A stretch of 64,000 bases of DNA, taken from NCBI RefSeq assembly GCF_031822435.1, contig NZ_JAVQLW010000006.1, forward strand, positions 1-64,000, written 5' to 3'. The stretch is from Paracoccus sp. MBLB3053. GTDB taxonomy: Bacteria > Pseudomonadota > Alphaproteobacteria > Rhodobacterales > Rhodobacteraceae. The position numbers and the translations under genes were made by a program. This document shows positions 10,092 to 35,701 of the stretch, piece after piece; within the stretch, counting starts at the first letter, position 1, and the number at the start of each line of letters is the position of its first letter. Below the pieces are notes generated by a model. The model saw nothing but the letters and a program-made list of their open reading frames with translations, was not told where the DNA came from and made no database searches.

Positions 10092-10176
10092 TGTCCGGCG
10101 TCAGGGCCTATGGGACAGATTTGGTTGATTGATGACGGGAGGGTTTCTGGCACATCGTAGCTTTCAAGGAGCGAAG

Positions 10177-10517
10177 ATGAGCAAGAAACCCGTTGATCAG
10201 AAAGTCGCCGCCGATCGCGCGGTGAGAGACATTCGCCGTGCGACGCGAAAGGTCCATTCGGCGGAGGAAAAGATCAGGATCGTCCTGGCCGGTTTGCGCG
10301 GCGAGGACAGCATTGCCGAGCTGTGCCGGCGCGAGGGGATCGCCCAGAGCGTCTATTTCAGCTGGTCGAAGGAGTTCCTCGAGGCTGGGAAGAGGCGTCT
10401 GGCGGGAGACACCGCCCGGCAGGCCAACAGCGCCGAGGTGAAGGACCTGCGGGCCGAGACCGCAGCGCTGAAGGAAGTCGTCGCGGATCTCACGCTCGAG
10501 AACCGATTGCTAAAAAA
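10177..10517 (+). pseudogene. IS3-family transposase OrfA, interrupted
   Basis: The frame from ATG 10177 (AAGGAGCGAAG upstream) encodes the OrfA helix-turn-helix (EEKIRIVLAGLRGEDSIAELCRREGI then SVYFSWSKEFL) and a leucine-zipper region ending ENRLLK. The IS110 insertion falls in a run of A residues at 10512-10517. The missing end (KSMNGAGGDDA, stop TGA overlapping the orfB ATG) is found at 12107-12138 on the far side of the insert. Confidence 0.88.
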
Positions 10518-12106
10518 CCGTCCCGGGCCTCTGCCCGCCTGTGCGCGGTATAAACAGCCTGTGCTATGCTACGCCCGAAGGGCAGATGCCGACTGCTTAT
10601 TGGTGGACTGGACCCCGTTAAAAAACGTGGCACATGGGCCGATGCGCACTTGAGAGTGGTGACGCCGCCATCGCGGCGATCCCGGTTAGGAAGATGACGA
10701 ACTTGCATGGCCCACGCCCTTCGCCTGGAACGGAGGAGATGCCATGACGAAGCGCAAATCCGGTGGCCACCCGGACCTGAAGATGGTCAATCCCAATGCG
10801 GCCGCGATCGATATCGGCTCGACGATGCACATGGCGGCTGTGAACCCTGACACCGACATCATGCCAGTGCGTGCCTTTGGAACATTCACCCAGGATTTGC
10901 ACGACCTTGCCGACTGGTTCCGGTCGTGCGGTGTCACCAGCGTGGCCATGGAATCGACCGGCGTTTACTGGATACCGGCCTTCGAAATCTTGGAAGCGAA
11001 TGGCTTCGAGGTCATCCTCGTGAATGCCCGCTACGCCAAGAATGTGCCAGGCCGCAAAACCGACGTCAGCGATGCCGGATGGCTGCGCCAGCTGCATTCC
11101 TATGGTTTGCTACGTGGCAGCTTCCACCCCGAAGCCGAGATCGCCACTCTGCGCGCTTATATGCGCCAACGCGAACGTCTGACAGAGTATGCAGCCGCTC
11201 ACATCCAGCACATGCAGAAGGCGCTGATGGAGATGAACCTGCAATTGCATCATGTGGTGTCGGACATCACAGGCGCAACGGGCATGCTGATCATCCGTGC
11301 CATCGTCGGTGGAGAGCGTGATCCCGAAGTTCTTGCCGCCTTCCGGGATGTCCGCTGCAAGTCATCGATGGGCACGATCAAAGCCGCGCTGGTCGGTAAT
11401 GATCGCCCGGAGCATGTCTTTGCTCTCACACAGTCGCTGGAGCTATACGACTTCTACAAGGCGCAGATTGAGGCGTGCGACCGCAGGCTGGAGGCGGCGG
11501 TTACCGCGCTGACTGTCCGGGCCGACGATGATCTGGCTCCGCTGCCGAAGGCACGGATCAAAGGCAAGCAGCACAACGCGCCGTCTTTCGATGTGCGGGC
11601 CGCGCTTTACGGGGTTTTGGGCACAGACCTGACGCAAATACACGGTCTTGGCCCGTCGCTGGCACTGAAGCTGGTGGCCGAATGCGGCACGGACCTGCGC
11701 GCTTGGAGAAGCGCAAAGCACTTCACGTCTTGGCTCTGTCTGGCCCCTGGGAACAAAATATCGGGGGGCAAGCTGCTGTCCTCACGGACACGCCGATCCT
11801 CCAGTCGTGCGGCCGCTCTCCTGCGCCTGGCTGCTGTCACGATTGGCAAAAGCGACACGGCCTTGGGCGCGTTTTACCGTCGGCTGTCATCCCGCATAGG
11901 CAAGCAAAAGGCAGTAACTGCCACAGCGCGCAAGATCGCAGTCTTGTTCTACAACGCCATCCGCCATGGCATGACCTACCAGGATCAGGGGGCGACAGCC
12001 TACGACGAGCGACACCGGCAACGCGTGTTGTCAAACCTTCAACGGCGCGCCAAGGCTCTCGGATTTGCATTGGCGCCCATCCCCGAGACCGCGGCTGTTT
12101 CTTAGG
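10518..12106 (+). mobile_element. IS110-family element nested in the IS3 orfA
   Basis: About 1.59 kb of sequence splits the IS3 orfA between the codons for LLK and KSM. It contains one transposase gene (10744-12105) that ends almost at the right boundary, and about 225 bp of upstream non-coding sequence. IS110-family elements usually have such a non-coding end and lack long terminal repeats and target duplications, as here. Boundaries are uncertain by a few A residues. The long non-coding 5' end (10518-10743) is where a guide (bridge) RNA is encoded in IS110 elements. Confidence 0.82.
10744..12105 (+). CDS. IS110-family transposase
   Basis: A 453-residue DEDD transposase. The N-terminal RuvC-like domain shows AAIDIGSTMHMAAV (Asp), MESTGVYWIPAFE (Glu) and KTDVSDAGWL (Asp pair). 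The C-terminal transposase_20 domain begins at LTQIHGLGPSLALKLVAECG and contains the region WLCLAPGNKISGGK in which the family's serine lies. GGAGG occurs 7 bases before the ATG. The gene is full length and appears intact, unlike the truncated copy at 35021. Confidence 0.93.
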   Translation: MTKRKSGGHPDLKMVNPNAAAIDIGSTMHMAAVNPDTDIMPVRAFGTFTQDLHDLADWFRSCGVTSVAMESTGVYWIPAFEILEANGFEVILVNARYAKNVPGRKTDVSDAGWLRQLHSYGLLRGSFHPEAEIATLRAYMRQRERLTEYAAAHIQHMQKALMEMNLQLHHVVSDITGATGMLIIRAIVGGERDPEVLAAFRDVRCKSSMGTIKAALVGNDRPEHVFALTQSLELYDFYKAQIEACDRRLEAAVTALTVRADDDLAPLPKARIKGKQHNAPSFDVRAALYGVLGTDLTQIHGLGPSLALKLVAECGTDLRAWRSAKHFTSWLCLAPGNKISGGKLLSSRTRRSSSRAAALLRLAAVTIGKSDTALGAFYRRLSSRIGKQKAVTATARKIAVLFYNAIRHGMTYQDQGATAYDERHRQRVLSNLQRRAKALGFALAPIPETAAVS

Positions 12107-13333: not shown

Positions 13334-14647
13334 TTATTCTTTCCTCGTGCGGTCGACCTCGTGGTGAAGCGTGGCGTGTCGGCTGGAAGCGTCACCGGGC
13401 AGCCTATTCAGTCCCTGCCGGTTTGAGGCGGTCGCACACCGACTTCCTGTCCCGAGAGGACGTGACTTCCGGGCTGAGACGAACTGCTCGTAGCTCTTCT
13501 CGGCGTGTTCGGCGATCTTCATCTCGTGGTGGCGCATGTCCTTAACGTTGTAAGCATAGCTCGCGCCGCGCCAATTGCCCTTCTTTTGAGGCTGCCCGGC
13601 CACCAGTTCCATGGCGCGCAGCTTGTGGGCCACCAGGCTTGGCCGGGCCCAACGGTAGTCCTCGCCGTTCGTCAGCATGTGCCAGCACAGGGTGGCAAGT
13701 TTGCGCGCGACTGCAACCGCGGCGATCTGATGGCCGCGACGCGCCCTGATGCGGATGAAGAACGCGCGCAGAGGACCGGGTGCTTTCGCAGCGGCCCAGG
13801 CCGCCTCGACCAGCATGGCGCGGGCATGGCTGCGCCCGACCTTGCTGATGCGGCCATGGTGGGCAGCGCCCAGGCCTGACTGGCGGACCCGCGGGTTCAG
13901 GCCAAAGTAGCTCACGAGCTTCTGGGCCGAACTGAACCGCTCGATGCTGCCGATTGCTGCCATCAGCCCGGCGGCAACCGCCAGATTGACGCCAGTGATC
14001 GTCAAGAGGCGCTGGATGGCCTCATCATTCGCTGCGTCCTGGGCGATATCCCGATCAAGCATGGCGAGGTCTTCGCCGAGACGATCCAACTCGCGGACAT
14101 GACGGGCAATCGCAGCCCGCTCGTCTTCGGGAACGGGCTGGCGCGCCAGCCAGTCCCGGCCGCGTCGATTGAACAGATCCGCGTGCGGACACTTCGGGAT
14201 CAGATGCGCATGTAAAATAGCATGCACCTCGTTCTTGATCCGGGTTCGGTGCCGGACAACCTGATAGCGGCGCGCGACAAGCCGGCGCAACCGCTCCGTG
14301 GCTGCATCTGGGGTCCAGATCTCCGGCAGATAGCCGACAGCATACAGGCTTGCCAGCGTCGCTGCGTCAACCTTGTCGGTCTTAACATGGGCATGGGCGA
14401 TAGCCTTCACCTGAAGCGGATTGGCGATCACCACGCGCGCAACGTGAGGCGATAGCACCCGCGACACGGCCATGCAGTTGCCGGTCGCCTCGATGACGAC
14501 CTCGTCTGTTCTGAGGAGCTGCCGACCAAAGCCCTCAAGCGCCGTTCGTGTCATGTCGACCCGGCCTTCGTGCCGGGTCAGGCCGTTCTCCCAGATCACC
14601 ACCTCTCCAAAGGTGCGGTGGATGTCTATGCCGATTACGCGTCGCAT
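13334..14647 (-). CDS. IS110-family transposase (second type)
   Basis: A 437-residue DEDD transposase unrelated in detail to the one at 10744. It starts RRVIGIDIHRTFGEVV, contains EATGNC and KTDKVDAATLASLY (catalytic carboxylates of the RuvC-like domain), and a transposase_20 domain from LLTITGVNLAVAAGLMAAIG onward. The C-terminal 90 residues extend past the usual end. The ATG at 14647 is chosen for the GGGAGG upstream; a start at 14671 is possible. The gene lies on the minus strand inside the IS256 remnant. Element ends are not defined, but must lie within about 13305 and 14900. Confidence 0.9.
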   Translation of the reverse strand: MRRVIGIDIHRTFGEVVIWENGLTRHEGRVDMTRTALEGFGRQLLRTDEVVIEATGNCMAVSRVLSPHVARVVIANPLQVKAIAHAHVKTDKVDAATLASLYAVGYLPEIWTPDAATERLRRLVARRYQVVRHRTRIKNEVHAILHAHLIPKCPHADLFNRRGRDWLARQPVPEDERAAIARHVRELDRLGEDLAMLDRDIAQDAANDEAIQRLLTITGVNLAVAAGLMAAIGSIERFSSAQKLVSYFGLNPRVRQSGLGAAHHGRISKVGRSHARAMLVEAAWAAAKAPGPLRAFFIRIRARRGHQIAAVAVARKLATLCWHMLTNGEDYRWARPSLVAHKLRAMELVAGQPQKKGNWRGASYAYNVKDMRHHEMKIAEHAEKSYEQFVSARKSRPLGTGSRCATASNRQGLNRLPGDASSRHATLHHEVDRTRKE

Positions 14648-14900
14648 GCGCGCCTCCCTTGCCAGTGACAACAGGCGGGAGCGGCGGGCGACACGACAAC
14701 TACGGATCCGCGCTCTCAGCGCAACCGGGCGAGTCGCAGAGGCGGTCAGCTACTAACTCGAGCTCAAAGCTCATCCAGTGCATCGACCTGCCCGCACTTT
14801 CGTGCTCCCGGTGCCTCTATCCCGGATGCTCTCAGCATACACCCCGAGCAAGAACTTGGGGCCGAACATTGGCACCGGCATCATCATACCGGTTACGAAC

Positions 14901-15110
14901 TCGATCGAACGGCTGAACGGTGAGATCAAGCGCCGCACAGACGTCGTCGGCATCTTCCCGAATGACGACGCCATCGTCCGCCTCGTCGGTGCCTTGCTTC
15001 TCGAACAAAATGATGAGTGAGCAGTCCAGCGCGCCCGTTACATGACACTGGAAACCATCGCGCCGATGGGCGAAGATCCCGTCATCAGCCTGCCCGCTGT
15101 GGCATCCTGA
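14901..15110 (+). pseudogene. IS256-family transposase, 3' fragment with nonsense codon
   Basis: Codons read SIERLNGEIKRRTDVVGIFPNDDAIVRLVGALLLEQNDE, described in part, then TGA where a Trp (TGG) is expected, then AVQRARYMTLETIAPMGEDPVISLPAVAS and the true stop. The catalytic Glu of the DDE triad (in NGEIKRR) is here. So this gene is broken by two insertions and a nonsense mutation. Confidence 0.82.
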
Positions 15111-15307
15111 TCAAGCAGGCCCGCGCCGAGCATCACGGTGACGATCAACGCCAGCTACACCACTCCGTGGGACAGCATCGGACGGTGCTCTCATTCCGGA
15201 TGCCTAACCAACACTGCCATCCCGAACAAGTTGGCAATGCCAGGCAAGTTGATCCCGAATTCACAAGGAGTGCGTCTGCGGCGCTCCTTTGAGTTGCTGG
15301 GGGACGG

Positions 15308-15735
15308 TCAGAAGCGGATATTGACGCCAACGACCGGGCCGCTCAGCGTGATGGCGGAATCGAGGCCGCCAATTTCCTGCTCCAACTCCATGTGGCGATA
15401 CCCTCCCGCCACTGCCCAACGCTCGCTGAATCGGTAGCCGACTGTGCCGACGGCCTGCCAGCTCGTTTCGTCGCTTGAGGTCAGGCCGTGGTCGAAATAG
15501 GCGTTGGCGAACCATTTTTCGCCAAAAGGCGCACTGAACCGACCCGCGACAAGTGGCACGACCCAGCTTTTGTCCCCACCAAAGGAGCGGTCGGACACAG
15601 CGGAAGCCGCGGCTTCCAGATCAACGCTCAAATCAACGTCAAATGCACGCAGCCCCACCCCGACATCTGCGGTCAGTTGCGGGCTGTCTGCGTGGGGTGC
15701 AATATGGACGCTATTCCGGCGATGCCGCGTTGACA
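15308..15735 (-). pseudogene. Outer-membrane beta-barrel protein, C-terminal fragment
   Basis: The minus strand encodes alternating amphipathic strands typical of a barrel: LTADVGVGLRAFDVDLSVDL, WQAVGTVGYRFSERWAVAGGYRHMEL and the terminal SGPVVGVNIRF with a final Phe. The frame continues upstream of the first GTG at 15658 to about 15735 without a start, where it meets a fragment of another gene on the opposite strand. It has therefore lost its N-terminus and signal peptide. Specific family not recognised. Confidence 0.6.
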
Positions 15736-15987
15736 GCAGAGTTCGAGTTGCGGCACCAGTTCACGCCCCGTTGGGCAAGTCTGGTTTTTGGCGGCCATGG
15801 AGAGACGTATGTCGACGACTCCCGCCTTTACGACGCCGAGGATGATATCTGGACCTGGGGTGCAGGCTTTCGCTATCGCATTGCACGCAAGATGGGAATC
15901 GACGCCGGGATCGACGTGGCGAAGGGCCCGGAGGATACGATATTCTACATCCAGTTCGGCCATGCTTGGATGCGGGCAATGGATTGA
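15721..15987 (+). pseudogene. BamA/TamA-like outer-membrane protein, C-terminal fragment
   Basis: From about 15721 the plus strand encodes ALTAEFELRHQFTPRWASLVFGG and a final strand set ending GIDAGIDVAKGPEDTIFYIQFGHAW, resembling the last strands of surface-antigen/BamA-type barrels. There is no upstream coding part, so it is a 3' fragment. It abuts a fragment of a different barrel gene in inverse orientation at about 15735, a clear rearrangement joint. Confidence 0.55.
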
Positions 15988-28420: not shown

Positions 28421-29089
28421 ATGTCCAAAATCACTCCAATGGGTTGGCTTGCCGCGATGCCGGCCGATTTCCAAAGCGAAGTCATGAAACGCGCTGAACG
28501 TCGTCGCGCAGAGGCTGGACAGCCCGTGTATCTGCTGGGCGAAGAGGCGCGTGGGCTTTACGGACTTCTGTCGGGCACCGTCGAGGTCAGTATCTTGTCT
28601 ACCGTCGGGGGGCATGGCCTGATCTACTTGGCCCGGCGCGGCTGGTGGTTCGGCGCGCTGGAGATCTTTACCACGCGACCGCGCCGTTTTCACATTCAGG
28701 CACGCACCGGCTGCGATCTGCTATTCGTCCCCGCGGCGCAGGTCAGGGAGATCTGCGGACTCGCGCCCGACTACTGGGAGCCATTTGCCCGGCTGATGTG
28801 CGGCAACTACGAGGCCATGGCCGATGCTGTTGCCATGATGAGGGATGCGTCACCAGACCGGCGCGTCTCCACGGCCCTGTTGATCCTTTACCACCGACAG
28901 GCAGAACCAACACCAGTCATCGAGGCCACGCAGCCCGACATCGCCTCGATCGCCAATGTCTCGCTGCGCTCTGCAGCCAGCGCCCTTGCAAAATTGGACG
29001 AAGACGGACTCATTCGGCGCGGCTATGGAACGGTGCAAATTCTCGACCCGGTCCGTCTTTCGCGAAATGCCGAAAGGCATGTCGAGTGA
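28421..29089 (+). CDS. Crp/Fnr-family transcriptional regulator
   Basis: A 222-residue regulator. The N-terminal cyclic-nucleotide-binding-like barrel (RRRAEAGQPVYLLGEEARGLYGLLSGTVEVSI, in part) is followed by a C-terminal winged helix (DIASIANVSLRSAASALAKLDEDGLIRRGYGTVQIL). No cysteine cluster of Fnr type is seen, and the cyclic nucleotide phosphate-binding Arg motif is not obvious, so its signal is unknown. It is divergent from the DUF1254-sulfatase operon, which it probably controls. Its 3' end overlaps the antisense end of a CinA-type gene by 80 bases. Confidence 0.85.
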   Translation: MSKITPMGWLAAMPADFQSEVMKRAERRRAEAGQPVYLLGEEARGLYGLLSGTVEVSILSTVGGHGLIYLARRGWWFGALEIFTTRPRRFHIQARTGCDLLFVPAAQVREICGLAPDYWEPFARLMCGNYEAMADAVAMMRDASPDRRVSTALLILYHRQAEPTPVIEATQPDIASIANVSLRSAASALAKLDEDGLIRRGYGTVQILDPVRLSRNAERHVE

Positions 29090-29570
29090 GCGGAAATTGG
29101 CTAATTAGTCCACACGCTTTGCGCTGCAATGCGAATACCGAACCTGTTGACGACAACAGGACGCGCATGCAGAGCTCGCGGATCAGTCGCCGACCGAGAG
29201 GGCCGAATTCCTCGTGACGTTCGACCGTCCCGTCCTGTCGCGCCGCAAGGGCAAAATGCAACTCACCCTCCCGTCCTTCCTCGGTGGCTCCGGCAAATCC
29301 GGTGACCGAAAGCGCGAAGCTGGCACCTGAGCGTTGCAAGGCGCCGTCCGCCATTGCAACGGGGACCTCGCGAGAGACGGTGCCGTGTTCGGCAATCAGT
29401 TGCGCGTCCACCCCGAGGTAACGGGCTTTCGCATCATCGCTATAGGTGACAAAGCCGCTGTCGAATGCATGTGAAACTCCTTCCACATCGGCCAGAAGGG
29501 TTGCGACTGCGCCGCCGGTGCAGCTTTCGGCAGTTGGGATCGACAGATCGCGCCGGGAAATATCTTGCAT
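29010..29570 (-). CDS. CinA C-terminal domain protein (nicotinamide-nucleotide amidase type)
   Basis: A CinA/PncC-like protein of 186 residues, with TAESCTGGAVATLLADVEGVS, in part, SGFVTYSDDAKARYLGV, TVSREVPVAMADGAL and LSVTGFAGATEEGREGELHFA, the characteristic blocks of this domain. Family members deamidate NMN in the pyridine nucleotide cycle. The domain should end near residue 150; the last 35 codons (29010-29110) run antisense into the Crp-type gene and probably reflect loss of the original stop. The region between it and the next gene is short, so it could be part of stress-related genes nearby. Confidence 0.75.
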   Translation of the reverse strand: MQDISRRDLSIPTAESCTGGAVATLLADVEGVSHAFDSGFVTYSDDAKARYLGVDAQLIAEHGTVSREVPVAMADGALQRSGASFALSVTGFAGATEEGREGELHFALAARQDGTVERHEEFGPLGRRLIRELCMRVLLSSTGSVFALQRKACGLISQFPLTRHAFRHFAKDGPGREFAPFHSRAE

Positions 29571-29799
29571 GATAAGGGCTTCACGCTGGCGAAGTTCGGG
29601 CGAGGCTTAAAACCGGTCTGACATGCTGTGCCGCGTCCTCGAAATCGACAGTGACCTTGGATCGGCTGTTGAACCGCTCGATCCGCTGATCTGCTCCCGC
29701 GGATGCGAGGAATGCGACCGGCATGACCACAAATGTTGGATCGTCGTGATCGTGGTCAGCGCATGCTTGGCCCTTCGAGTTTTGCGAGGAGGGGAATGC

Positions 29800-30225
29800 G
29801 TGGATCAGCCATTGCCGGGACTGCGTGACGATCTGGATATGATGCGGGTCTTCGTACGACTTGTCTGTGCCGAAGACAGAAGTGCCGAGGCGCTGCTTGA
29901 TCGATGCTTGCGTCAGGCCATCCGGTTGGCCGAGCGCGGCGAGCTTGCCGACAGCAAGGTCGGGCTGCTGCGCCTGATGTGCGCCGATCCAGATCTGCAA
30001 TCTCCCAAGATTGTCCCATTCCACGCAGCGCAGGGAAAGGGGTCGGAGGTCTTGCTGGTCGCAATCCGAAGCCTGCCTCTGGCGCAGCGGTTGGCGCTGG
30101 TGCTTCTGGATCTGCTTCATCTGGGACCATCTCAGGTTGCACATATCCTGGCGATCGAGCCCTTGGTCCTGGCCCGTCATCGGATCGCGGCACGCGAGGC
30201 CTTGCATAATGTGCTGGCAAAATGA
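29800..30225 (+). CDS. Sigma-70-like protein, possibly a receiver-less PhyR-type sigma mimic
   Basis: A 141-residue protein from a GTG at 29800 preceded by GAGGAGGGG. The first half (LRDDLDMMRVFVRLVCAEDRSAEALLDRCLRQAI) resembles sigma region 2 of EcfG-type factors. The last 45 residues (IRSLPLAQRLALVLLDLLHLGPSQVAHILAI, in part) resemble region 4. PhyR, the anti-anti-sigma factor of alphaproteobacterial general stress response, has this sigma-like part followed by a receiver domain; no receiver is present here. NepR and EcfG are encoded 1.2 kb downstream. It could be a sigma mimic that binds NepR, or a degenerate ECF sigma factor. Similarity is judged by eye. Confidence 0.5.
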   Translation: MDQPLPGLRDDLDMMRVFVRLVCAEDRSAEALLDRCLRQAIRLAERGELADSKVGLLRLMCADPDLQSPKIVPFHAAQGKGSEVLLVAIRSLPLAQRLALVLLDLLHLGPSQVAHILAIEPLVLARHRIAAREALHNVLAK

Positions 30226-30256
30226 GCCGCATTGGGGAACGCGAGGGGCGCGGAAG

Positions 30257-31012
30257 ATGTTCGAGCGACACAGCGATTTTCTGAGGGATGGCGGAACCGG
30301 AATGCGCAACTTTGTCGCTCGTAAGTTGAGCTATGGTGCCGCCCTGCAGGACAGCGATCATGCGCGCCTGGACGAGTTGATGCGGCATTGGAAGGCGATG
30401 CCGGCCAAGTCCGACATCATCAGTCAGGGCGATGATCCCGAATATGTCCATGCGATCCTTGACGGCATTTCCTGCCGCTACAAGATCCTGCCGGACGGAA
30501 GGCGCTCGATCATGGATTTGCTGATCCCGGGCGATTTCTGCGATATGAATATCGCAATCCTTGGCCGGATGGATCACAGCATCGGCACGCTGACGCCCTG
30601 CCGCGTCGCCTTTATTTCGCGTTCCGAAATCGAGGATTTGCTGCTCGATTTCCCCCGCATCGCAAGGGCGATGTGGTGGGCCACTTTGGTCGATGAGGCC
30701 ATTTTGCGCGAATGGCTGGTCAATATGGGACAGCGCCGATCGGATCGGCAAATGGCGCATCTGCTTTGCGAACTCTATCTGCGTTATGCCGCGATCGGCT
30801 GGCCCGATAAATTCGCGCTTGCTTTGACGCAAGAGCAGCTTGCCGACACGCTGGGCATCACTGTGGTCCATGCACAGCGCGTCATCGCGGCCCTGCGTCA
30901 GGACGGGTTGATCGAGTTGCGCGACCGCCAGATCACCATTCCCGATATTGCGCGGCTGATGGAGTTCTCGGAATTCAATCCCGATTACCTGCATCTGCCG
31001 CCGGAAAGCTGA
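30257..31012 (+). CDS. Crp/Fnr-family transcriptional regulator
   Basis: A 251-residue regulator with an N-terminal sensor barrel (HWKAMPAKSDIISQGDDPEYVHAILDGISCRYKILPDGRRSIMDLLIPGDFCD, in part) and a C-terminal helix-turn-helix (LTQEQLADTLGITVVHAQRVIAALRQDGLIELRDRQITIPD, in part). This form, often with the LRxSG-like region reduced, is common beside stress genes in Rhizobiales and Rhodobacterales. It has no Fnr cysteines. The start at 30257 lies 31 bp after the sigma-like gene; a small DUF6894 gene follows 5 bp later, so the three are probably one operon. Confidence 0.88.
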   Translation: MFERHSDFLRDGGTGMRNFVARKLSYGAALQDSDHARLDELMRHWKAMPAKSDIISQGDDPEYVHAILDGISCRYKILPDGRRSIMDLLIPGDFCDMNIAILGRMDHSIGTLTPCRVAFISRSEIEDLLLDFPRIARAMWWATLVDEAILREWLVNMGQRRSDRQMAHLLCELYLRYAAIGWPDKFALALTQEQLADTLGITVVHAQRVIAALRQDGLIELRDRQITIPDIARLMEFSEFNPDYLHLPPES

Positions 31013-31017
31013 CGCCC

Positions 31018-31254
31018 ATGCCCCGCTTTTATTTCGATATCGACGACGGGCTGCGCTTCACTTCGGATGATGACGGGCAGGCCCTGCCGGATCGGGCTGC
31101 CGCGCGAAACATGGCAATCTCGGTCTTGCCGCCACTGGCGCGGGATGTGATGCCCGACGGCGATCGTCACGCCGTCTGGGTGGTGATCCGCAACGAGGAA
31201 GGTGACGCGATTTTTCGGGCCGTGCTCGAACTCGTCGCCGAATGGCTCGATTGA
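31018..31254 (+). CDS. DUF6894 family small protein
   Basis: A 78-residue acidic protein beginning MPRFYFDIDDGLRF and containing LPDRAAARNMAISVLPPLARD and VVIRNEEGDAIFRAVLEL, the pattern of the small DUF6894 proteins that are common in alphaproteobacterial stress loci. Function unknown. It begins 5 bp after the Crp/Fnr gene. Confidence 0.8.
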   Translation: MPRFYFDIDDGLRFTSDDDGQALPDRAAARNMAISVLPPLARDVMPDGDRHAVWVVIRNEEGDAIFRAVLELVAEWLD

Positions 31255-31381
31255 GCCGCCGCCTTACGTTGAATATTCCCGGGGATTTGCTACTCTTCTC
31301 GTAATTGTGATCACCCGAAGGCGAGGTTTTGGGGCACATCCGGCCAGCTTAATGGTTCTTGCGGGTTCAAAGGAAGGCGAG

Positions 31382-31549
31382 ATGACGGGATTGCCAATGC
31401 CGGACAAGGATGAAGCACCGCGCCTCGAGCCGGAACTGGACAAGGCATTGTCCGATTTGCTGGAACAGACGCGCAAAGAACCCCTTTCTCCCCGCTTGCA
31501 AGAGCTGGCCGATCGCTTGGCCAAAGCCCTTGCCGAGGCGCGGCAGTGA
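31382..31549 (+). CDS. nepR: NepR-family anti-sigma factor
   Basis: A 55-residue protein from an ATG with the strong site AGGAAGGCGAG. The conserved core LDKALSDLLEQTRKEPLSPRLQELADRLAKAL matches the two NepR helices joined by the EP(V/L)P-like turn (KEPLSP). NepR binds and holds EcfG until released by phosphorylated PhyR. It precedes an ecfG gene by 115 bp, the usual arrangement. The match is from the short core, but the neighbour supports it well. Confidence 0.75.
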   Translation: MTGLPMPDKDEAPRLEPELDKALSDLLEQTRKEPLSPRLQELADRLAKALAEARQ

Positions 31550-31605
31550 GCGGGCGCGCTATCTGACTCGCAATGGGCGAGGTAGCGCCCACGCGCCGCT
31601 CAGCC

Positions 31606-31630
31606 GGAACCAAGCCGCCGTCTCGACGTT
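31606..31630 (+). promoter_or_regulatory. EcfG-type promoter upstream of ecfG
   Basis: GGAAC (31606-31610), 16 bases, CGTT (31627-31630) matches the general-stress-response consensus GGAAC-N16/17-CGTT exactly. It lies 35 bases before the ecfG start codon, so EcfG probably drives its own gene. Confidence 0.8.
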
Positions 31631-31664
31631 TGCGTCCCTGAGGATGGACAGGGGAGGCTTCTCC

Positions 31665-32141
31665 ATGTTGAAAGACGAGATCGTCGACCAGATACCCGCG
31701 CTTCGGGCCTATTCGCGCTGCTTGTGCAGATCATTTTCCCAAGCCGAGGATCTGGTGCAAGAGACGCTGCTGCGCGCCATCGAATATGCAGACAGCTTTC
31801 AGCCGGGCACAAATCTGCGGGCTTGGCTCTTTACCATCATGCGCAACCGCTTTTTGACGAATTGCCGTAAATCGGCCCGCGAATTGACCGGAGGCGTCGA
31901 TTGCGTCTCAGATCAGCCCCGGGTCGAGGCCGGGCAGGAATGGTATATGCAGGCGATCGAGGTGCGACGTGTCCTTCGCGATATGCCCGCCCATTACCGC
32001 GATGCGATCGTTCTCGTCGGCGGTTTCGGTGAGAGTTATATCGACGCCGCGCGAATTCTCGATTGCGATATCGGCACCATCAAAAGCCGGGTGAACCGGG
32101 CAAGGCGGATCCTGCGCGAGGCCCTCGAGCCTGCTTTGTGA
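31665..32141 (+). CDS. ecfG: EcfG-type RNA polymerase sigma factor
   Basis: A 158-residue ECF sigma factor of the ECF15/EcfG type. Region 2 is RAYSRCLCRSFSQAEDLVQETLLRAIEYADSFQPGTNLRAWLFTIMRNRFLT, in part. Region 4 is LRDMPAHYRDAIVLVGGFGESYIDAARILDCDIGTIKSRVNRARRIL, in part. It directs the general stress response when NepR releases it. GGGGAGG precedes the ATG. An exact EcfG-type promoter lies just upstream, and similar promoters precede the next two envelope genes, so these form its nearest regulon. Being on a plasmid it may act beside, or interfere with, a chromosomal EcfG. Confidence 0.9.
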   Translation: MLKDEIVDQIPALRAYSRCLCRSFSQAEDLVQETLLRAIEYADSFQPGTNLRAWLFTIMRNRFLTNCRKSARELTGGVDCVSDQPRVEAGQEWYMQAIEVRRVLRDMPAHYRDAIVLVGGFGESYIDAARILDCDIGTIKSRVNRARRILREALEPAL

Positions 32142-32146
32142 AGTTT

Positions 32147-32171
32147 GGAACATCGGCGCGGAAGTCAGGTT
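32147..32171 (+). promoter_or_regulatory. EcfG-like promoter of the membrane-protein gene
   Basis: GGAAC (32147-32151), 16 bases, GGTT (32168-32171). It differs from the consensus at one base of the -10 and lies 28 bases before the start codon of the gene at 32199. Confidence 0.6.
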
Positions 32172-32198
32172 CTCGACCTCTATTCTGGTGAGGCAACG

Positions 32199-32846
32199 AT
32201 GGCAGAGAGTTCCGGATTCTTGACGACAACTTTGCGAGCCGGGCTTTTGGCCGCGCTCGTCTCGGGCTTGGTGCTGGGCGTGGCTGCAATGCTCGCTGGT
32301 CACCCATTCTGGATGCCCCTGAATGTCACCACCCAAGCCTTTTTCGGCCCGGAAGTGGCGCTGGTCAGAGGTCTCGACCTGACCCATAGCGGGTTCGGCC
32401 TGCTCATCCATGTGGTTTCAAGTCTGTTCTGGGCGGTGATCGCAACATTGCTGTTTCGCGGCATTGGTCACGCTTGGATCGTCGGATTGGGCACCGCCCT
32501 TTTGGCGCTTGTCGTCGATTATGGCTTTCTACCGGAATGGATGAGTCCCGGCTGGCATCTCGCCATGCCCTTCATCGGCGTGGTTGCGGGTTTCGTCGGG
32601 CTGGGGATAGGTTTGGGACTAGGGCTTTCGCTTGCGGTCAGACCAGCACCCGTGCACCCGGTGCGCTCGGGAGGCCCGGCGCCCGTCGAAAGTGAGACCA
32701 ATCACGGCGGTCCCGATGCATTGCGGCACCCGGGGCCGAATGTCATCGATCAGCGCCTTCAGCGCATCGATCCAGCCAATCTGGTGACCGAAGATCCCAA
32801 TCGGCAGGGGCATGGTCCGAACCCGCCGCATAAGGTAACGAACTGA
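32199..32846 (+). CDS. Membrane protein, probable general-stress-regulon member
   Basis: A 215-residue protein with about four hydrophobic helices (GLLAALVSGLVLGVAAMLAG, LLIHVVSSLFWAVIATLLF, WIVGLGTALLALVVDYGFL, MPFIGVVAGFVGLGIGLGLGL) and a hydrophilic, proline-rich tail of about 60 residues. No known family was recognised with certainty; similar proteins are predicted inner-membrane proteins of unknown role. It follows ecfG, has its own EcfG-like promoter, and precedes a PRC-barrel-like gene. Confidence 0.75.
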   Translation: MAESSGFLTTTLRAGLLAALVSGLVLGVAAMLAGHPFWMPLNVTTQAFFGPEVALVRGLDLTHSGFGLLIHVVSSLFWAVIATLLFRGIGHAWIVGLGTALLALVVDYGFLPEWMSPGWHLAMPFIGVVAGFVGLGIGLGLGLSLAVRPAPVHPVRSGGPAPVESETNHGGPDALRHPGPNVIDQRLQRIDPANLVTEDPNRQGHGPNPPHKVTN

Positions 32847-32874
32847 GCGGGCGTAACCTGAGGTTTGGCCCTCG

Positions 32875-32899
32875 GGAACAATTCCGCTCTTTGCAGGTT
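32875..32899 (+). promoter_or_regulatory. EcfG-like promoter of the PRC-barrel-like gene
   Basis: GGAAC (32875-32879), 16 bases, GGTT (32896-32899), the same form as at 32147. It lies 37 bases before the start codon at 32936. Confidence 0.6.
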
Positions 32900-32935
32900 C
32901 GCAACTCCCACGCTTCACTGCGTATGGAGGAGAGG

Positions 32936-33616
32936 ATGAGCAGACTATTCTCGACAACCGCTCTTATACTGTTGCTTGCAGGCGGCAGCGCCGTGGCACA
33001 GACAGCGACGACGCCACCTGCGGCGGATCCCGCCGTCGCGACAGCGCCAATGACCGCGCCAACAATCACAGCGCCCGAAGGCTATATGGCCGACAAAATC
33101 GTGTTCAGCGCCGAAAATCTCGACGGTGTGACGGTCTATGACGCGACGGGCGAACGCATCGGCGAGGTCCATGGTCTGGTCTTTGCCAATGGAACCACCG
33201 CCGGCATGGGCGTGACCCCTCCGGTCAGTGCGGTCAATCCGGTCTCTGATCCGATAGCCCCGGTGACGACCACCGAACCGACCGGCATGGCAACCACCGC
33301 GCCCGCCACCGGTGAGGCCGCCAAGGTCGAAGGCGACAAGATCGGCAATGTCGGCCATGATGCGACGACGATGAGCCCGACCGATGCCGCGACGCCCCCG
33401 GCGCAATCGGCCGATGCGATGAGCTCGGCGGATCCGGGCGCGATCACCCAAGCGGTAATTGATGTTGGTGGCTTTCTCGGCATGGGCGAACATCGCGTCG
33501 CTATCCCGGTCGAGGAGCTCGTGGCCTATCGCAAGGAAAACGAGTTGCGGATTTATCTGCCCAAGACCCGCGAGCAATTGATGGCCTTGCCCAAATTCGA
33601 GGCCGATCCTGCCTAA
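32936..33616 (+). CDS. PRC-barrel-like exported protein
   Basis: A 226-residue protein with a signal peptide (LFSTTALILLLAGGSAVAQ) and a split PRC-barrel: VYDATGERIGEVHGLVFAN near residue 65 and VDVGGFLGMGEHRVAIPVEEL near residue 180. Between them is a low-complexity Ala/Thr/Pro-rich insert (about residues 90-165) that is unusually long. PRC-barrel proteins of this type occur in alphaproteobacterial stress regulons, and the EcfG-like promoter upstream agrees. GGAGGAGAGG precedes the ATG. Role unknown. Confidence 0.75.
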   Translation: MSRLFSTTALILLLAGGSAVAQTATTPPAADPAVATAPMTAPTITAPEGYMADKIVFSAENLDGVTVYDATGERIGEVHGLVFANGTTAGMGVTPPVSAVNPVSDPIAPVTTTEPTGMATTAPATGEAAKVEGDKIGNVGHDATTMSPTDAATPPAQSADAMSSADPGAITQAVIDVGGFLGMGEHRVAIPVEELVAYRKENELRIYLPKTREQLMALPKFEADPA

Positions 33617-34368: not shown

Positions 34369-34453
34369 TGTCCGGCGTCAGGGCCTATGGGACAGATTTG
34401 GTTGATTGATGATGGGAGGGTTTCTGGCACATCGTAGCTTTCAAGGAGCGAAG

Positions 34454-34794
34454 ATGAGCAAGAAACCCGTTGATCAGAAAGTCGCCGCCGATCGCGCGGT
34501 GAGAGACATTCGCCGTGCGACGCGAAAGGTCCATTCGGCGGAGGAAAAGATCAGGATCGTCCTGGCCGGTTTGCGCGGCGAGGACAGCATTGCCGAGCTG
34601 TGCCGGCGCGAGGGGATCGCCCAGAGCGTCTATTTCAGCTGGTCGAAGGAGTTCCTCGAGGCTGGGAAGAGGCGTCTGGCGGGAGACACCGCCCGGCAGG
34701 CCAACAGCGCCGAGGTGAAGGACCTGCGGGCCGAGACCGCAGCGCTGAAGGAAGTCGTCGCGGATCTCACGCTCGAGAACCGATTGCTAAAAAA
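34454..34794 (+). pseudogene. IS3-family OrfA, interrupted (second copy)
   Basis: Same as 10177-10517, coded from ATG 34454 with the helix-turn-helix and zipper of OrfA, interrupted at the same place by the IS110 element. No orfB follows in this copy. Confidence 0.85.
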
Positions 34795-35020
34795 CCGTCC
34801 CGGGCCTCTGCCCGCCTGTGCGCGGTATAAACAGCCTGTGCTATGCTACGCCCGAAGGGCAGATGCCGACTGCTTATTGGTGGACTGGACCCCGTTAAAA
34901 AACGTGGCACATGGGCCGATGCGCACTTGAGAGTGGTGACGCCGCCATCGCGGCGATCCCGGTTAGGAAGATGACGAACTTGCATGGCCCACGCCCTTCG
35001 CCTGGAACGGAGGAGATGCC

Positions 35021-35701
35021 ATGACGAAGCGCAAATCCGGTGGCCACCCGGACCTGAAGATGGTCAATCCCAATGCGGCCGCGATCGATATCGGCTCGAC
35101 GATGCACATGGCGGCTGTGAACCCTGACACCGACATCATGCCAGTGCGTGCCTTTGGAACATTCACCCAGGATTTGCACGACCTTGCCGACTGGTTCCGG
35201 TCGTGCGGTGTCACCAGCGTGGCCATGGAATCGACCGGCGTTTACTGGATACCGGCCTTCGAAATCTTGGAAGCGAATGGCTTCGAGGTCATCCTCGTGA
35301 ATGCCCGCTACGCCAAGAATGTGCCAGGCCGCAAAACCGACGTCAGCGATGCCGGATGGCTGCGCCAGCTGCATTCCTATGCTTTGCTACGTGGCAGCTT
35401 CCACCCCGAAGCCGAGATCGCCACTCTGCGCGCTTATATGCGCCAACGCGAACGTCTGACAGAGTATGCAGCCGCTCACATCCAGCACATGCAGAAGGCG
35501 CTGATGGAGATGAACCTGCAATTGCATCATGTGGTGTCGGACATCACAGGCGCAACGGGCATGCTGATCATCCGTGCCATCGTCGGTGGAGAGCGTGATC
35601 CCGAAGTTCTTGCCGCCTTCCGGGATGTCCGCTGCAAGTCATCGATGGGCACGATCAAAGCCGCGCTGGTCGGTAATGATCGCCCGGAGCATGTCTTTGC
35701 T
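35021..35701 (+). pseudogene. IS110-family transposase, 3'-truncated copy
   Basis: The first 227 codons of the transposase at 10744, with one difference (HSYALL here, HSYGLL there). It retains the RuvC-like DEDD residues but lacks the whole C-terminal domain, and the frame ends two codons into the IS21 sequence. Not functional. Confidence 0.9.

Follow-up and report, generated by a model that had tools for sequence, protein, structure and literature searches.

Can the partner switch that frees a stress sigma factor from its anti-sigma factor work without a receiver domain? The question is raised by a gene module at positions 28421..33616 of a 64-kb stretch of Paracoccus sp. MBLB3053 DNA (the window, which is the first part of the 114,070-base contig C6 in a 4.6-Mb genome), where the gene at 29800-30225 encodes a 141-residue sigma-like protein, termed the mimic here, and the genes of a small NepR-like protein and an EcfG-type sigma factor lie close by. 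The window carries genes for ParA, ParB and RepC, which identifies contig C6 as a plasmid, as had been proposed in an earlier note made from the letters of this DNA alone. The answer suggested by the analysis described below is that the mimic may free the stress sigma factor simply by being made. The preferred reading, to which a probability a little short of even is assigned, is that a regulator-induced, non-transcribing mimic binds the NepR-like protein and thereby releases EcfG for plasmid genes.

In the general stress response (GSR) of alphaproteobacteria, as described in passages of a 2021 review (PMC8103513), the sigma-like domain of PhyR, whose regions for contact with promoter and core are degenerate, titrates NepR once PhyR is phosphorylated; excerpts of another article state that the partner switch involves a two-component system (PMC8999054). 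The known mimic of this response is tied to a receiver, and phosphorylation sets the timing of NepR capture. If the preferred reading is true, such a switch can run by transcription alone and move between replicons as a module, the mimic offers a natural means to study binding apart from phosphorylation, and its existence helps to explain the extra EcfG-NepR pairs of many alphaproteobacteria.

Coding status, predicted fold and lost sigma factor positions

The mimic gene is a real, conserved coding gene. In comparison with the copy in P. aestuariivivens, which has the same gene order and a product 73% identical to the window protein, its ratio of nonsynonymous to synonymous substitution rates (dN/dS) is 0.234 in its own frame, versus 0.40-1.39 in the other five frames. 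A Pfam search of the protein returned no families at E 10, Sigma70_r2 and Sigma70_r4 included. The PhyR family model NF006623 gave a weak full-length match of 17.0 bits (curated cut-off 240), with residues 10-138 aligned to positions 8-135 of the 258 in the model. The predicted structure (predicted local distance difference test, pLDDT, 86) is a two-domain sigma fold consisting of region 2 and region 4, and its region-4-like half resembles sigma region 4 structures. Thus, the sigma regions 2 and 4 claimed in the earlier note are invisible to Pfam and become apparent in the predicted fold and the PhyR alignment. In the structural comparison with the PhyR sigma-like domain, also proposed there, the best match is EcfG bound to NepR, with PhyR bound to NepR close behind.

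To see what the protein has lost, 43 positions that are invariant across 42 EcfG proteins were examined. The window mimic keeps 12 of these, the other six mimics described below keep 12 to 23, and PhyR sigma-like domains keep 14.1 on average; three EcfG rows, which are members of the defining set, keep 41 or 42. The losses are concentrated in positions specific to EcfG: the window mimic retains 7 of 13 positions common to EcfG and PhyR versus 4 of 28 that only EcfG has (one-sided Fisher p 0.0125; 0.0125 to 0.16 across the seven mimics). What is left amounts to 3 of 7 invariant positions in region 2.2, 1 of 11 in regions 2.3/2.4 and 2 of 9 in region 4.2, and less sequence separates regions 2 and 4 than in EcfG. 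The loss of most positions that contact core RNA polymerase or the promoter indicates that the mimic is not an ordinary sigma factor of the extracytoplasmic function (ECF) type; had it been one, the idea of the earlier note would, on its own terms, have been refuted. The positions needed for core polymerase and DNA are mostly gone, and those retained are the ones common to EcfG and PhyR; we infer that the NepR surface belongs to this common part. Binding without a receiver is possible, as demonstrated by solved complexes of NepR with the sigma-like domain of PhyR on its own (2lfw, 3t0y).

As a separate observation, dS of the mimic gene against the copy at locus L001 is 0.74, more than twice that of the Crp gene (0.22) and the EcfG gene (0.32) of the same pair, perhaps due to recombination.

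Mimic loci in other genomes

The genomes of 125 members of the genus were searched with Crp and with a mimic profile. A mimic gene stands directly before a Crp/Fnr gene at no fewer than seven loci in six genomes (a lower bound, as only part of the sigma-like matches were examined): the window, contig C2 of the host (G000-C2), G006, G043, G040 (P. liaowanqingii), G030 and G083. The mimics of G043 and G030 were first found via the Crp search, and adjacency to Crp is not independent there. EcfG and NepR-like genes are located within about 6 kb of the mimic at all seven loci, and the Crp/Fnr proteins beside the other six mimics are 48-97% identical to the second Crp/Fnr regulator of the window. 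The G000-C2 locus repeats the gene order of the window, as does P. aestuariivivens, a recurrence that the earlier note had proposed to look for on other plasmids; a tBLASTn search of 72,556 plasmids with the window mimic gave zero matches. The genes of G030 and G040 are arranged differently, as NepR-like, EcfG, mimic, Crp, HWE kinase and stand-alone receiver.

Matches to the mimic profile are present in 124 of the 125 genus genomes, and the 25 loci examined in addition to the mimics (L058-L082) encode ordinary ECF sigma factors, as do the 29 loci examined (L084-L112) from a family-wide search in which 36 of 394 genomes matched; these assignments were made by motif, except for L061, which was assigned by its place in the tree only. 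Five proteins of a 5.8-billion-protein set matched the profile at E 1e-10 (7997 candidates scored). Other protein database searches gave one relative in one case and two in another, one of the two being the query itself, and all named relatives are from Paracoccus.

EcfG-type promoters and a conserved upstream element

The pattern GGAAC-N17-GTT, which we take to be the consensus of EcfG-type promoters, is found at three sites on the forward strand between 29600 and 33000, beginning 52 to 61 nucleotides before the EcfG, membrane protein and PRC-barrel genes; the mean over 2000 shuffles was 0.033 and none reached three. A looser pattern (N16-18) is not enriched across the whole window (6 sites versus 4.05). 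The site before the PRC-barrel gene is kept at all four loci checked. The Crp gene at 30257 perhaps also has an EcfG-type promoter, a candidate with an 18-base spacer; the gap between mimic and Crp genes at five other loci contains N18 sites (L001, L049) or N17 sites (L043, L050, L051). None of the seven mimic genes has an EcfG-type promoter within 400 nucleotides of its start, unlike phyR, whose expression is described as GSR-driven in passages of the 2021 review (PMC8103513).

What four of the mimic genes have instead is an element, CACAAWTGTTGG, that is located 57-63 nucleotides before the mimic start in the window, G006, G043 (11 of 12 letters) and G000-C2. It falls in two different frames relative to the mimic gene and hence does not owe its conservation to a shared peptide. 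The element is present twice in the host genome, once before each mimic, and a reversed control pattern is absent. The 125 genomes together contain ten matches in nine genomes, of which three precede mimic genes and seven are elsewhere; one of the seven was examined and lies inside a coding gene. The motif was derived by aligning the four loci, for which reason finding it there carries no independent weight, but not finding it in the rest of the host genome does. The four element-bearing mimics begin with GTG or TTG and the remaining three with ATG. The Crp proteins at the three other element loci are 76-97% identical to that of the window, and this, with the Crp/Fnr neighbour at every mimic locus, makes the linked Crp/Fnr protein the candidate reader of the element. 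Together, the conserved element and the lack of an EcfG-type promoter point to transcriptional control of the mimic rather than the plain gene dosage contemplated in the earlier note.

The NepR-like protein

The 55-residue protein at 31382-31549 was called NepR in the earlier note. That identity is plausible, mostly on account of its position before EcfG, its size and its pattern, and the protein likely acts as an anti-sigma factor. NepR-like proteins of plasmids are conserved beside EcfG, and a profile of them that contains the chromosomal NepR finds NepR structures at E 5e-5; without it, the value is 0.36. A profile widened by 18 small proteins encoded beside other EcfG genes gave an HHalign E of 2.3e-6, a value that rested on two chromosomal-type NepRs among the 18; without both, E is 0.0024 at a probability of 12%, a weak profile link that beats all 30 column-shuffled controls (best control 0.011).

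Proposed mechanism and alternatives

According to the preferred reading, the mimic gene would be turned on through its upstream element by a regulator, for which the adjacent Crp/Fnr protein is the most likely candidate. The mimic, folded as sigma regions 2 and 4 with most core and promoter contacts lost, would not support transcription; it would bind the plasmid NepR-like protein, the putative anti-sigma factor, in the place of EcfG, which would be released. The freed EcfG would then transcribe its own gene and those of the membrane and PRC-barrel proteins, perhaps also that of Crp. The amount of mimic, set by its own promoter, would decide how much NepR is left for EcfG. Put forward more tentatively, at a probability well below even, is the fuller picture of a synthesis-driven partner switch, in which the mimic would be produced solely upon action of a dedicated regulator, probably the linked Crp/Fnr protein, at its element, and its titration of NepR would turn on a plasmid-borne, self-amplifying EcfG regulon of envelope genes in parallel to the kinase-driven PhyR of the chromosome.

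Several results weigh against the preferred reading. The complex of SigW with RsiW fits the predicted mimic structure equally as well as that of EcfG with NepR. The mimic protein evolves fast, which could indicate decay. The NepR-like protein of the window has no match to PF18557 (the chromosomal NepR scores 52.5 bits), and its single sequence retrieves no NepR from the PDB; with a profile that excludes the chromosomal NepR, the best NepR structure appears at E 0.36, behind two other helical proteins, and a profile of the chromosomal NepR run over 1773 small frames does not single out the plasmid proteins. Finally, contig C40 of G043 (L052) contains 2791 bp that are 99.7% identical to window positions 30825-33615. 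The match starts within the Crp gene and extends to the PRC-barrel gene, and no mimic gene accompanies it. At least there, the module survives without one, though G043 has a mimic elsewhere. Such identity between different species is, on sequence evidence, a recent exchange of the EcfG-NepR-like module.

The alternative that survives best, though unlikely, is that the mimic is a decaying EcfG-type paralogue, losing its function and kept by chance or for a minor role. Its dN/dS is 0.23-0.39, versus 0.04-0.06 for EcfG and Crp, and in the P. aestuariivivens pair its dN is 0.174, versus 0.014 for each of these; the copy of the module without a mimic and the weak placement of window-type mimics among ECF sigma factors in the tree are also as expected of decay. 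However, the frame is open at seven loci with dN/dS well under 1, the fold is predicted with confidence, the upstream element is kept across diverged loci, and the losses lie mainly in EcfG-only positions.

Rather improbable is a split PhyR, of which the mimic would be one half, able to bind NepR only via a separate receiver fed by an HWE kinase. Directly after the mimic and Crp genes of G030 and G040 come genes for an HWE kinase (66 bits to PF07536 in G030) and for a receiver that stands alone (22-23 bits to PF00072, under the cut-off of 30.2), which could be the rest of a split PhyR (L050 7937-10459 in G030; L002 10409-10777 in P. liaowanqingii). Contig C3 of G006 (L143) encodes a second full-length PhyR (10244-11047, 330.8 bits) about 12 kb from the mimic and, about 16-17 kb from it, an HWE kinase of the phytochrome type that includes a receiver (14549-15844, HWE_HK 72 bits); among 41 genomes sampled, 39 have one PhyR at the score cut-off applied, one has none and G006 has two. 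A lone sigma-like protein adjoins an HWE kinase in Rhizobium sp. WL3 as well. Against a split PhyR, the window plasmid offers no partner: of 42 receiver matches (PF00072) genome-wide, none is on contig C6, either immediately beside the mimic gene, where the earlier note had said that a receiver gene would refute its idea, or elsewhere, and the two HWE kinase matches of the genome are on contigs C1 and C3 (the related HisKA_2 family was not searched). The mimic itself ends at 141 residues, which agrees with the earlier note in its claim of a protein without a receiver domain. At the G000-C2, G043 and G083 loci, for which no dedicated scan was made, neither a receiver nor an HWE kinase was noticed.

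The host has one full chromosomal PhyR (C1:852554-853321, 352 bits), with EcfG and NepR genes adjoining and an HWE kinase gene about 2 kb away. This PhyR, with the kinase, could reach the NepR-like protein of the plasmid in trans, and kinase independence of the plasmid module, as raised in the earlier note, is thus no more than a possibility. Four EcfG genes of the host are beside a NepR or NepR-like gene, two of them with mimics and one with PhyR, which makes cross-talk testable in a single strain. A further EcfG gene, at 181218-181664 of contig C2 (L044), has a NepR-like gene but no mimic or Crp gene seen adjoining. Another host sigma factor, at C1:223609, is an ECF of another type with no NepR-like neighbour seen.

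Next in rank, and doubtful, is the explanation that the mimic is a partner or co-regulator of the Crp/Fnr protein, or binds DNA through its region-4-like half, and is unrelated to NepR. At each of the seven loci a Crp/Fnr gene directly follows the mimic gene, with the reservation already made for G043 and G030, and the region-4-like half of the predicted fold has sigma region 4 structures among its matches; however, few EcfG-invariant positions remain in region 4.2, the Crp gene has a candidate promoter of its own, and EcfG and NepR-like genes are near at every locus. It is very improbable that the mimic is a diverged but active ECF sigma factor that recognises a new type of promoter, as its predicted fold would allow, given that it matches no Pfam family and has lost most core- and promoter-binding positions.

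Origin of the mimic

In a phylogenetic tree, 15 PhyR domains form a clade of their own (100/99) with the mimics outside it, on which ground a recent truncation of the host PhyR was rejected as the origin of the mimic. The mimics of G040 and G030 group weakly with PhyR, which is also their best family model (46 bits, receiver half absent); the five window-type mimics are placed weakly among the ECF sigma factors, and for those of G000-C2, G043, G083 and G006 the best models are of ECF sigma factors and cover one half only. Long branches make the tree unsafe, and topology tests do not reject a single clade of seven mimics (approximately unbiased test, p-AU 0.43), of window-type mimics with PhyR (0.309) or of all mimics with PhyR (0.437). 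The term PhyR-like is apt for the fold and the lost positions of the mimic; it describes form, and either PhyR or EcfG may be the ancestor.

Comparison with known systems

The mimic resembles PhyR in its predicted two-domain sigma-like fold, in its loss of core and promoter positions, in having nepR-like and ecfG genes nearby and in its weak full-length profile matches. Unlike PhyR, it has no receiver, scores far below the family cut-off and is placed by the tree outside the PhyR clade. It resembles EcfG (ECF15) in that its predicted fold is the same and the closest solved structure is EcfG with NepR, and its profile scores ECF proteins at 56-81 bits and PhyR at 25-26 bits; it differs from EcfG in most of the invariant positions and in the shorter stretch between regions 2 and 4. 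Excerpts of a study of Methylobacterium extorquens (PMC4814048) describe additional EcfG and NepR paralogues, which are comparable as accessory GSR parts that vary by species, with NepR homologues that have altered partners; the extra parts in those excerpts are sigma factors and NepR homologues, and a receiver-less mimic is not named there.

The protein of the Rhizobium sp. WL3 plasmid (L152 5001-5474) is likewise sigma-like and without a receiver. It has 157 residues and is encoded alone beside the HWE kinase gene (L152 5001-7052), where no receiver is annotated. Unlike the mimic, its region 4 DNA-binding motif looks intact and only its region 2 is degraded, and unlike at the mimic loci, the annotation of the 10.3-kb stretch includes neither an EcfG nor a NepR gene; the protein is perhaps an independent receiver-less case. 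No natural receiver-less sigma mimic was found in the portions of the open-licence literature covered by our search, and the mimic system is judged to be a new variant of the PhyR-NepR-EcfG switch.

Other features of the module and its surroundings

The remaining components named in the earlier note, namely two Crp/Fnr-type regulators, a DUF6894 protein, an EcfG and two envelope proteins, were all recovered by family or hydropathy evidence (Table 1). The EcfG keeps 42 of the 43 EcfG-invariant positions and adjoins the NepR-like gene; its scores are below the NCBIfam equivalog cut-offs. No EcfG-type promoter was found in the 200 nucleotides upstream of the first Crp/Fnr regulator, and the second may start at 30302. 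A Pfam search of the membrane protein gave no families above the cut-off.

Table 1. Positions of genes and sites of the module in the window
Feature	Position	Strand	Basis or remark
Crp/Fnr-type regulator 1, 222 aa	28421..29089	+	Pfam cNMP_binding 1.5e-13, HTH_Crp_2 1.5e-9
CinA-family protein, divergent from and just upstream of the mimic gene	29010..29570	-	PF02464, 121.9 bits
Conserved element CACAAATGTTGG, candidate regulator site	29728..29739	+	61 nt before mimic start
Receiver-less sigma mimic, 141 aa	29800..30225	+	GTG start behind AGGAGG
Possible EcfG-type promoter of Crp gene	30236..30261	+	GGAAC-N18-GTT
Crp/Fnr-type regulator 2	30257..31012	+	Pfam cNMP_binding, HTH_Crp_2 5e-16
DUF6894 protein, 78 aa	31018..31254	+	PF21834, E 1.6e-18
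Diverged NepR-like protein (55 aa), presumed to be an anti-sigma factor	31382..31549	+	Position, conservation before EcfG
EcfG-type promoter before EcfG	31606..31630	+	GGAAC-N17-GTT
EcfG-type sigma factor, 158 aa	31665..32141	+	Pfam Sigma70_r2, r4_2; NCBIfam
EcfG-type promoter before membrane protein gene	32147..32171	+	
Hydrophobic protein, 215 aa, several membrane segments	32199..32846	+	Hydropathy
EcfG-type promoter before PRC-barrel gene	32875..32899	+	
Exported PRC-barrel protein	32936..33616	+	PF05239, E 1.1e-7; signal-peptide-like start

Two direct insertion sequence copies (window positions 10092-11424 and 34369-35701), which are 99.85% identical over 1333 bp, flank about 23 kb that contain the module. 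The transposase encoded at 10744 is of the IS110 type, and the second copy has a shorter frame.

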